Assembly (NCBI GenBank): GCA_018971365.1
Contig: JAGXAZ010000005.1
Span: forward strand, 1 to 35,384
DNA length: 35,384 nucleotides
Source: Gammaproteobacteria bacterium
GTDB lineage: Bacteria > Pseudomonadota > Gammaproteobacteria > Natronospirales > REEB76
Direction of reading: 5' to 3'
Position numbers and translations under genes: made by a program. The notes under the pieces are model-generated. The model saw nothing but the letters and a program-made list of their open reading frames with translations. It was not told the DNA's origin and did no database searches. Below, piece after piece: positions 29,365-33,317 of the stretch (the first letter of the stretch is position 1; the number at the start of each line of letters is the position of its first letter).

Positions 29365-29538
29365 AAATCCCCCTCACCGCCCTTTCCCAAAGTGGCGCGC
29401 GCCGCCGCGTAACGTGCCAATCCAATGCCGCCCTTCATCCCTTCCCCCCTTTGCAAAGGGGGTCAGGAGTAGTCGGGAGCGACGCCCAACTCACGCCGCG
29501 CGGCGCTCCCCTTAATAAAGGGGGATCAGGGGGGATTT
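29365..29538. repeat. AAATCCCCC palindromic repeat element, copy 1
   Basis: The 441-base gap between the thioesterase and the next gene holds this element. Its ends are AAATCCCCCTCA and a reversed GGGGGGATTT. Inside lies a perfect 18-base palindrome at 29445-29462 (CCCCCTTTGCAAAGGGGG) and a second CTCCCCTTAATAAAGGGGGAT arm. The same palindrome recurs at 31483-31502. The element encodes nothing. From 29540 to 29764 I see only a small stem (CAGGTTCGCGCGAAACCTG, 29697-29715) before the next ribosome-binding site. Confidence 0.6.
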
Positions 29539-29764
29539 CAGGCGATGATCACAACGGGAATGTAATGAACCTACAAAACCGCGCCACTGAAATCCGCGCA
29601 CCAGGTAAACTCGGTGACAAGGTCGAGGCGTTGAGCGTCGTTGATCTCACGGCCAATACCGGCAAGGACACCTGAAGATTACGCAAACTTAACGCACAGG
29701 TTCGCGCGAAACCTGCAACAGATACTAGACTTGATCCTCCCCGCACCGGATCAGGAGAGAATTC

Positions 29765-30268: not shown

Positions 30269-31282
30269 ATGAAAACATCGTTCCTGGTTTCGTTGCTGCT
30301 CGCCTCTCTGCCGCTCCCCGCGTTGGCGGCACCCACACTGCTCACACCACAGACCATCATCAAAATTCCCGGCGGCGCGCACGGCATCGGTTTCGACGAC
30401 ATCGGTTACGCCGCGCCGCTCAAGCGCGTCACCGTTCCCGCCGGCGCCACCGGCAACCTGGTGCTGATTAACCCCGCCACCGACGCGCTCACCGTCATTC
30501 CCGGCGTGAGCGCCCCGCCCGCGAACTCCAAAGAGCGCCGCGAAGGCACGAGTTCGGCCATGTATGCCGAGGGTTACCTGTTCGCGAGCGACCACGACCC
30601 GGATGAAGTGGTGGCGATCAACCCGCACACGCACAAGATCGTCGGGCGCACGCGCCTGCAAAGCGGACCGGATTACGTGCGTTACGTGCCTCGCACGCAT
30701 GAGATCTGGGTCACCGAGCCGGAGAAACAGCAGATTCAGGTGTTCAAGCTGTCCGTGGACCCCAAACCCGTGCTCACGCCGGAAACCGTGATCCACATTG
30801 CCGGCGGTCCGGAATCGCTGGAAATAGACAACGCACGCAATCGCGCCTACTCCAATCTCTGGAAGGACAAGACCGTCGAGACGGAACTCACCACCCGCAA
30901 GGTGCTGGCCGAGTGGCCCAACGGCTGTCAGGGATCGCGCGGCCTGGCGCTGGACGAGATTCATGACTACCTGTTTGTGGCCTGCACCGAAGGCAAGGTG
31001 GCCGTGCTATCGCCCGATGAGCATGGCAAAGTGCTGGCCACCGCGCCGGCCGGCGCCGGCATAGACATCATCAGCTACGGCCCGCGGCTGCATCATCTGT
31101 ACGTGCCCGGCGCACGTGCAGCCACGCTCACGATCTTCAATGTGTCTCCGACCGGCGCACTTAATGCCCTGGCCGTTTACAAAACCGCGGAACATGCCCA
31201 CTGTGTCACCGACGACAACGCGGGTCATGTGTTTGTTTGTGATCCGCACGCCGGTGAGATTTTCAAAATTGACGACCGCTGA
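30269..31282 (+). CDS. Secreted YncE/NHL-like beta-propeller protein
   Basis: The 337-aa protein has a signal peptide (FLVSLLLASLPLPALA-AP). The mature part is built of repeating strands typical of YncE or SMP-30-like propellers: NLVLINPATDALTVIPG, VVAINPHTHKIVGRTRLQ, IQVFKLSVDPKPVL, ESLEIDNARNRAYSNL, KVAVLSPDEHGKVLA and HLYVPGARAATLTIFN, about six to seven blades. An ending VFVCDPHAGEIFKIDD closes the ring. Such proteins bind ligands or act as lactonases; no catalytic site is obvious. ACGAGGATTC lies upstream of the ATG. Its 3' side is a cluster of repeats. Confidence 0.75.
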   Translation: MKTSFLVSLLLASLPLPALAAPTLLTPQTIIKIPGGAHGIGFDDIGYAAPLKRVTVPAGATGNLVLINPATDALTVIPGVSAPPANSKERREGTSSAMYAEGYLFASDHDPDEVVAINPHTHKIVGRTRLQSGPDYVRYVPRTHEIWVTEPEKQQIQVFKLSVDPKPVLTPETVIHIAGGPESLEIDNARNRAYSNLWKDKTVETELTTRKVLAEWPNGCQGSRGLALDEIHDYLFVACTEGKVAVLSPDEHGKVLATAPAGAGIDIISYGPRLHHLYVPGARAATLTIFNVSPTGALNALAVYKTAEHAHCVTDDNAGHVFVCDPHAGEIFKIDDR

Positions 31283-31340
31283 TCTATGCGCCCACAAACA
31301 TTGAGGTCAATTCTTCGAGACGATATGAATTATTACCTTT

Positions 31341-31413
31341 TGTCTTTCCCGCAAAAGCGGGAATCCAGGAAATTAAATCTCTGGACCTCCGCCTCCGCGA
31401 GGATAGCGGATGT
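31341..31413. repeat. TTCCCGC-AAAA-GCGGGAA palindromic repeat
   Basis: A seven-base perfect stem (31346-31352 with 31357-31363) with an AAAA loop is followed by ATCCAGG and a matching CTGGAC about 20 bases on. This is the widespread proteobacterial intergenic repeat with ends like TTCCCGCnAAAGCGGGAATCCAG. The second half is diverged. It lies between the propeller gene and the MITE-like element. Confidence 0.55.
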
Positions 31414-31422
31414 GTCAAGGTC

Positions 31423-31566
31423 CCTTAGAGCACCTAACAAAAAGGCTATGCGTGACAAATCCCCCCGCGCGCAATGCGCGCTCCCCCCTTTGCAAAGGGG
31501 GGCACGGGGGGGGATTTAACGTGTGCCGGGCGATGGCCGCCGTACATTTCGTTAGACGCTCTTAGG
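31423..31566. mobile_element. MITE-like element with terminal inverted repeats
   Basis: The left end CCTTAGAGCACCTAACAAAA (31423-31442) is an imperfect inverted copy of the right end (31547-31566), matching at 16 of 20 positions. The 144-base interior has no transposase and is dominated by a smaller palindrome element (31457-31517). Size and inverted termini fit a non-autonomous miniature element. No clear target duplication is visible. The right end overlaps the stop codon of the DNA glycosylase gene. Confidence 0.55.
31457..31517. repeat. AAATCCCCC palindromic repeat element, copy 2, nested in the MITE-like element
   Basis: AAATCCCCCC at 31457 faces GGGGGGGGATTT at 31517, with a perfect 20-base palindrome between (31483-31502, CCCCCCTTTGCAAAGGGGGG) and a small GCGCGC-AAT-GCGCGC stem. 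It shares ends and core with copy 1 at 29365-29538. Confidence 0.65.
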
Positions 31567-32218
31567 CATTTAACGATTTCGGTCCGCTGACGAACGGATT
31601 GCCGCGTTCGTAAAAGCGCAGACGCCGGTCCGCGTCTTTGGTGATGCCGATGCGCACACCGCGGCCGATACGCCCGACCGGCCGCACCGCGTGCGCCAGC
31701 CACAGAGGCCCGCCGGCACACAGGTCCAGGCCGTCCTGTTTCATGGTCACGCGCAGCGCCGCCGCCAGCCGTCCGGGTCCGCGCGCCAAGTTTTTTTCCG
31801 CGACGTGGCTGCGGCCACGCTTCATAAGCTGCTCGCCCGCCAGCGGTTCCAGCGCACGGAACAGCACCGCCGCGCCCACTCCTGCTTTTCCCGCGCTCAC
31901 GTTGAGCATGAAGTAATTGCCGTAAATGAAATACACGTACGCGTGCCCGGGCGGCAGAAACAGGGAATGGTTGCGCTTGGTCATGCCGTTGAACGCATGA
32001 CAGGCCTTGTCGTAAGGCAGATAGGCTTCGGTTTCCACGATGCGTCCGGCGATCCGGCCCTCGGGCAGCTCGCGCACCAGCGTCTTGCCAATCAGAAATC
32101 GCGCCATAGTGATGGCGCCCACGGGCAAATCGCGGCGTGGCAACCGCCGCAAGGAGCTGACGGGCGACACCGGGACGCTCACGCGATCAGCTTGATGAAT
32201 TGAGTGCGTGTGTCTCAC
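31562..32218 (-). CDS. DNA-3-methyladenine glycosylase, Aag/MPG family
   Basis: This protein excises alkylated purines in base-excision repair. The 218-aa frame shows the Aag fold: ARFLIGKTLVRELPEGRIAGRIVETEAYLPYDKACHAF with the catalytic-site VETEAY, GMTKRNHSLFLPPGHAYVYFIYGNYFMLNVS, LFRALEPLAG, GPGRLAAALRVTMKQDGLDL and GRGVRIGITKDADRRLRFYERGNPFVS. The start is uncertain: the frame opens at GTG 32218, but no ribosome-binding site is visible and the first 30 residues are not conserved. A GTG at residue 13 is possible. The TAA stop (31562-31564) lies inside the end of the MITE-like element. Confidence 0.9.
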   Translation of the reverse strand: MRHTHSIHQADRVSVPVSPVSSLRRLPRRDLPVGAITMARFLIGKTLVRELPEGRIAGRIVETEAYLPYDKACHAFNGMTKRNHSLFLPPGHAYVYFIYGNYFMLNVSAGKAGVGAAVLFRALEPLAGEQLMKRGRSHVAEKNLARGPGRLAAALRVTMKQDGLDLCAGGPLWLAHAVRPVGRIGRGVRIGITKDADRRLRFYERGNPFVSGPKSLNA

Positions 32219-32373: not shown

Positions 32374-32685
32374 TCACCAGCGGGCGCGGCCGCCGCCATT
32401 GCCACCACCGCCACCGGGGCGGAAACCGCCGGTACGCGGCTTGTCAGTGGCGATGCTGACCTTGAGCGGACGACCGCTGAGGTCCTTGCCATTCTGCTCG
32501 AGGGCCTTCTCCGCCGCCGCCTGGGTGGCGAAGGTGATGAATCCGAAGCCCTTGGGGCGGCCGGTATCGCGGTCCATGATCATGGCCAGTTCTGAAATTT
32601 CTCCGTACTGGGAAAAGATTCCGCGCAACTGCGTTTCGTCCACCGAGTAAGGAAAATTTCCCACATACAGTTTGTTCTGTGACAT
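32374..32685 (-). CDS. RRM-domain RNA-binding protein (glycine-rich)
   Basis: The 103-aa protein is one RNA recognition motif with a glycine-rich tail. RNP2 is LYVGNF (6-11) and RNP1 is KGFGFITF (about 46-53), both with the aromatic residues that stack on RNA. The tail PGGGGGNGGGRARW ends in arginines. Such small RRM proteins are found in many bacteria (cyanobacterial Rbp and proteobacterial relatives), often cold-induced. The ATG at 32685 has AGAGAGA upstream. The frame is open another 51 codons upstream but that region lacks family similarity and is AT-rich leader. A good terminator follows. Confidence 0.92.
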   Translation of the reverse strand: MSQNKLYVGNFPYSVDETQLRGIFSQYGEISELAMIMDRDTGRPKGFGFITFATQAAAEKALEQNGKDLSGRPLKVSIATDKPRTGGFRPGGGGGNGGGRARW

Positions 32686-33317
32686 TGCAATCTCTCTGAA
32701 AAGTAATTGATAACTTGAAGTTTGTTCTCTAAAACAGCGATGGGTAATAACCATCAGAAGCCATCTCAAAAACGACTGGGGTACGGGCAGAACTTGACCG
32801 GCATCAGCGGGAAAGGGGGCGTACAGGGCGGTACACAAACAAGGTACGGGGATGTACGGGTGCCGCGCAACCCCTGGAAGTCCCCGGCGGGAGGAAACAG
32901 GAGGTCAAAGCGGCCATTCCGAGCTGACGCGCAACTGGGCTTTGCCCGGCGCAGTGATTTGTGAGATGGCTTCTGAATACCGCTGACTGTGTTGAGGACG
33001 CGCTCTTTATATCACGTCCGGTGGAAGATAGCAAAAACAGACGCTTCAATCGAGCAATGACCGCTTTGCCCAGTGTTCCCGAAAACACCAAACGTACTGC
33101 CGTGTTTCATAGGCTCACCGGGCCGAGAACCCGCGAACCGGGTGGAGACCAGCGGGCGGCCGCCGGTGGGTATCGAACCGGTCAAACCGAGCGCGCCCGC
33201 ACCGGTGTCTTGCCGACGAGAAACCGCGCCGGGGCAATAGTATTTATCGGTAATTCACTTCGAAGCAGGCATCGAAGTTGGTATGTGAGCCCGTTGCGCG
33301 AATCAATGCCAGCCGTT
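32686..33317. other. Gene-free stretch between RRM and brnA genes
   Basis: No convincing gene is present. The first 70 bases upstream of the RRM start are AT-rich, as in a leader or promoter. GTACGGG recurs at 32781, 32844 and 32854, with GTACAGG at 32821. A short piece at 33192-33231 resembles the DNA glycosylase gene. The rest shows nothing I can name. Confidence 0.6.
33192..33231 (-). pseudogene. Short fragment resembling the Aag/MPG glycosylase 5' region
   Basis: On the minus strand this reads ARFLVGKTPVRA, close to ARFLIGKTLVRE of the glycosylase gene at about 32105-32070. About 27 of 36 bases match. Outside this block the similarity is lost and stops follow. It may be the remnant of a partial duplication or chance. 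Confidence 0.28.

Follow-up and report, generated by a model that had tools for sequence, protein, structure and literature searches.

A MITE with IS5-type ends adjoining the stop codon of a DNA-3-methyladenine glycosylase gene

The locus and the borders of the element

The window analysed here is a stretch of 35,384 nucleotides from a gammaproteobacterial contig (own genome, G000). Towards its right end, a plus-strand open reading frame ending at 31282 on one side and a minus-strand DNA-3-methyladenine glycosylase gene on the other enclose a short element (Table 1), which is assigned to the MITEs on account of its short length, inverted ends, target duplication and several dispersed copies. 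A non-coding element with inverted ends had already been proposed at this place in a first-pass annotation, and its presence is confirmed beyond chance. The annotated 20-base terminal repeats are indeed inverted, but that length included five flanking bases per side; the true ends are 17 bp long and imperfect, with 13 of 17 positions matching. Similarly, the annotation was right that the element holds no gene, as each of the six frames comprises at most 44 codons and no transposase of its own is encoded, yet one frame per strand crosses 31428-31561 without a stop. The target duplication measures 3 bp (TTA on both sides). A 5-bp duplication of CTTAG was considered as well and rejected, since copies lacking the flanking C or G (G000 C129 and G000 C150) agree over three bases only. 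The motif CTWAG occurs just twice in the entire window, both times at the borders of this MITE.

Table 1 Features at the locus (positions in the window)
Feature	Position	Strand	Basis or remark
MITE, 134 bp	31428..31561	+ (family-alignment orientation)	Alignment of 19 full-length copies; borders set by duplication
Target duplication, left copy, TTA	31425..31427	.	Same triplet on both sides
Target duplication, right copy, TTA (TAA stop of the glycosylase on the minus strand)	31562..31564	-	
Left terminal inverted repeat	31428..31444	+	13/17 positions match the right end
Right terminal inverted repeat	31545..31561	-	13/17 positions match the left end; also recovered by pattern search
CTTAG, left border	31424..31428	.	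Final G is the first base of the element
CTTAG, right border	31561..31565	.	Initial C is the last base of the element
Inner palindromic module	31457..31518	.	Best-conserved part of the MITE family (19-copy alignment)
DNA-3-methyladenine glycosylase gene, start codon uncertain	31562..32218	-	NCBIfam NF002003 and TIGR00567, both over cut-off

Three further observations concern the surroundings of the element. A second repeat with an inverted TTCCCGCAAAAGCGGGAA core adjoins the MITE at 31339-31410 and is matched in part at three other places of the own genome. At about 29450-29560, translated open reading frames resemble a further copy of the CCCCTTT/AAAGGGG inner palindrome, an impression gained without alignment. 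Upstream of the glycosylase, a small RNA-recognition-motif protein with a glycine-rich tail is found on the minus strand (32374-32688). A search of the window against Rfam at gathering thresholds gave no match.

Copies of the element and likely source of the transposase

Within the own genome, a BLAST search with positions 31400-31600 returned 51 matches, 11 of which span nearly the whole MITE (the window's own copy being counted in both figures), while many of the remaining ones cover the inner palindrome only. The inner module by itself gave 64 matches, some of them overlapping both-strand matches of one palindrome. A separate origin of this inner repeat is not supported, as several inner-only matches retain decayed MITE sequence leftward on inspection by eye. 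The search covered 39 genomes, among them the own genome, and six had matches, with many copies in G000, G002 and G003 and weak partial matches only in G006, G016 and G027. The ten other genomes of the same genus accordingly comprise two with clear copies (G002 and G003) and one, G006, with a single marginal partial match. Nineteen full-length copies align end to end. The check for copies elsewhere that had been suggested with the first-pass annotation thus turned them up in the own genome and in congeners, rather than a lack of copies in any related genome.

The ends of the MITE are shared with an autonomous element, an 891-bp IS flanked by TTA or TAA duplications, of which G001 carries two copies and G008 one (both of the same genus). 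Its transposase is encoded in two overlapping frames, DUF4096 followed by DDE, with domain matches to PF01609 and PF13340; the DDE part reaches 134.8 bits against NF033580 (cut-off 110) and is thereby assigned to the IS5 family. Judged by these sequence features, the 891-bp IS5-family IS is the likely source of the transposase acting on the MITE. An IS5 transposase of the G001/G008 kind had no match in G000 (about 81% complete), G002 or G003, where the source may be lost, unassembled or absent. The earlier description of the element as MITE-like is upheld: it is present in many copies, its ends are inverted, a 3-bp duplication flanks it, and sister genomes carry an IS5-family IS sharing its ends.

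Related ends are also seen outside this setting. Long forms of about 200-440 bp (L025, L054, L086 and L036) share the ends of the MITE and are extended by an additional palindromic module located between inner palindrome and right end. The exact end CATTTTGTTAGACGCTCTWA occurs in contigs of many phyla (L123-L237, among the matches listed) and is, again among the matches listed, commonest in two groundwater Nitrospinota genomes, which hold dozens of copies of several lengths. End pairs of IS length were found on named contigs of Noviherbaspirillum, Keguizhuia, Ereboglobus and an Opitutaceae MAG (among the matches listed), transposase domains having been looked at in the Keguizhuia and Ereboglobus pairs only.

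Target duplication across the family

For the congeneric genomes, 76 raw end pairs were reduced to 40 by requiring that the two triplets of the duplication differ by no more than one base and keeping one pair per right end, and removal of two false pairs (G000 C37 and G000 C55) and of the two IS copies of G001 left 36 copies; a 37th, G003 C17:105776, was added to these. Copies whose duplication has decayed by at least two bases are left out of the counts. In the set of 36, from which more divergent duplications had thus been excluded, the flanking triplets are identical in 25 copies, 23 times as TWA. For the end pairs on named contigs, the far triplet played no part in the selection unless several partners competed, and here 62 of 83 have identical triplets, all 62 of them TWA (among the matches listed). 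As the end pattern demanded TWA on one side, the evidence lies in the agreement of the two sides and not in the letters themselves. Among the 83 rows, at least six repeat copies already counted under G001, G002 and G007; the Nitrospinota test described below was run without these.

Age of the glycosylase stop codon

Read on the minus strand, positions 31562-31564 form the glycosylase stop TAA. This codon was originally placed inside the right terminus of the element; it actually lies just outside, being the duplicated target triplet. Orthologous glycosylases were found in five of the ten congeners (G001, G003, G005, G007 and G009; 72-89% identity), the search giving no match in the other five. 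All five orthologues terminate at the same codon, two residues past a conserved GP[KR]-x-L, with TAG as stop in one and TGA in four but TAA in none, and the MITE is absent from the 330 bases after the stop in every case. Since the five orthologues share the stop codon without the element, the MITE neither supplied the glycosylase stop nor altered the C-terminus, and by this comparison of sequences the stop predates the insertion. The proposal that the element's end supplied the stop and that insertion shaped the C-terminus is therefore abandoned, the observation named in advance as speaking against it, orthologues with the same C-terminus and no element, having been made. It is true that the stop touches the element and that, in sister copies sitting in TAG stops, the first base of the element (G) is the last base of the codon, as would be expected if the terminus had created a new stop and set the length of the protein. 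With the stop here being the duplicated target triplet and five element-free orthologues ending at the same codon, such an origin is nevertheless extremely improbable. A stop derived from the element is literally true only for the sister copies in TAG stops, and even there the codon is restored, not created.

In G003, the intergenic sequence after the glycosylase stop is unlike that of the window, so that an empty allele of the exact site was not observed. Three further pairs of filled and empty sites (G000 C15, G000 C74 and G007 C88, each compared with G003) gave the same outcome on the 30 bases after the stop. In other cases, both genomes carry the element at the same stop (G000 C168 and G003 C26; G000 C74 and G002 C92; G003 C11 and G000 C33). 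One pair is contrary: a copy of the element follows the stop both in the G000 C50 gene and in its relative in G003, yet the last residues differ.

Insertion into stop codons

CTWAG is strongly preferred as insertion target by the MITE family and carries TAA or TAG, according to strand. With G as its first base and C as its last, the element rebuilds CTWAG at both borders, so that TAA and TAG stops both survive an insertion. By gene calls from a simple purpose-made codon-usage caller, 14 of the 36 copies of G000, G002, G003 and G007 occupy a stop codon, 18 are intergenic and 4 genic. The extended set of 37 copies with recognisable duplication contains 15 in a stop codon (6/13 in G000, 3/9 in G007, 0/3 in G002 and 6/12 in G003), one of these in a stop shared by two convergent genes. 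This copy, at G003 C17:105776-106137 (L084, L248), sits where the stops of two convergent open reading frames overlap; the insertion has moved these stops apart, and both are kept. One frame ends in TAG, using the element's own G, and encodes a protein of 405 residues, for which the acyltransferase match is marginal; the other ends in TAA and encodes a 709-residue GGDEF-EAL protein. Pfam matches were obtained for 11 of the 14 other proteins ending at an occupied stop, which indicates that most of these open reading frames are real genes.

A target that itself contains stop codons, together with loss of genic insertions, could yield such a pattern as a mere by-product, with nothing further favouring stops. 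This reading is held for somewhat less than an even bet. About a fifth of the non-genic CTWAG sites of G003 are stops (19/93 in 1.2 Mb, with end-like sites removed), a null that replaced a first one from 400 kb of the same genome (10/37 CTWAG sites at stops), in which element borders were still included. Among strict CTWAG copies outside genes in the window's genus, in contrast, 11 of 19 occupy stops and the other 8 are intergenic, an excess over 19/93 (Fisher p 0.0017) for which the null comes from one genome, G003, and the copies from four. For this strict count, one of two same-looking insertions (G000 C168 and G003 C26:162128) was dropped and the G003 C17 copy added; without the latter, 10 stop and 8 intergenic copies gave p values of 0.0002 to 0.004 over four gene-caller settings. 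Strict CTWAG copies inside genes amount to 0/19 in a list compiled by hand that holds both members of the shared pair, compared with 61 of 154 CTWAG sites being genic in the 1.2 Mb of G003. The two Nitrospinota genomes with related ends, on the other hand, agree with a by-product: 74 loci gave 44 copies (among the matches listed), and 4 of the 35 non-genic ones are at stops versus 2.0 expected, which is no significant excess (p 0.13). In 37 of these 44 copies, a C or G is present at just one side of the target.

The bolder claim that a transposable element lineage treats stop codons as codon-level safe harbours, above target-sequence expectation in the window's genus, is regarded as rather doubtful. 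Were it true, entry into one gene's stop, or into the stop shared by a convergent pair, would alter neither protein.

Predicted RNA folding

The predicted RNA folds of the MITE are strong on both strands (z of -5.7 and -4.7, with 0/200 shuffles as good), which could suggest that the hairpin terminates or shields the upstream mRNA and that the element is retained after stops for this reason. Such a role, modelled from predicted folds, is unlikely in view of the lack of a terminator-like site within the element, and inverted ends by themselves yield folds of this kind. Covariation is almost absent as well, with a double change in 1 of 16 consensus pairs, and a selected RNA structure was rejected as an established fact for this reason.

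Proposed history of the insertion

Taken together, a MITE moved by an IS5-type transposase has very probably entered a CTTAG holding the glycosylase stop, whereby the duplication regenerated the stop and the protein remained unchanged. Mobilisation by the transposase, with this CTTAG as target, would have involved a 3-bp staggered cut at TTA, the repair of which presumably duplicated the triplet. One TTA copy would still read TAA for the glycosylase, while the other would have come to lie beyond the element, and the terminal G and C of the element would have rebuilt CTTAG at both borders. The glycosylase protein would thus be left as it was, and a transcript running past the stop would acquire a strong predicted hairpin. 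Recurrence at stops is partly to be expected from a palindromic target with TAA or TAG plus loss of genic insertions; a further excess in the genus may reflect milder effects at gene 3' ends than elsewhere between genes.

In this way, a mobile element can enter a gene's last codon at no protein cost owing to a duplication of 3 bp, and regeneration of CTWAG at both borders represents a simple rule predicting harmless sites, with the convergent stops of G003 C17:105776-106137 as its clearest example. A general caution also follows: contact between a stop codon and a repeat is no proof that the codon derives from the repeat.

Comparison with known systems

Among the titles and abstracts listed by literature searches, with subscription papers mostly beyond reach, no description of MITEs docking in stop codons was found. 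REP/BIME sequences are palindromes without IS-type ends or target duplication, and the window element, which has IS-type ends and a TWA duplication, does not belong to them. The IS5 groups follow the target rules TNA or C-TNA-G. The partner IS resembles the small two-frame members of the IS5 family (IS427 or IS1031 group) in its two overlapping frames, its 891 bp and its TWA duplication; in the accessible part of one source, a member of the IS1031 group has 893 bp and one of the IS427 group 860 bp, with two ORFs each (PMC3196728). The window MITE differs from such IS5 members in being without transposase, and the common sequence is mainly the terminal 17 or so bases.

Further likenesses can be drawn from the accessible part of the review by Delihas (PMC2229807). 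Correia/NEMIS, RUP and ERIC are, like the window MITE, short and dispersed, with inverted ends, target duplication and strong RNA folds, and RUP is tied to an IS through its ends, as the window MITE is. While the bacterial MITEs reviewed in that part are tied to TA sites, the window MITE duplicates TWA in CTWAG, often in stop codons. The frame-fusing MITE insertions of the same source are likewise small mobile repeats meeting protein-coding genes; they, however, add residues by in-frame fusion, whereas the insertion in the window leaves the protein unchanged.
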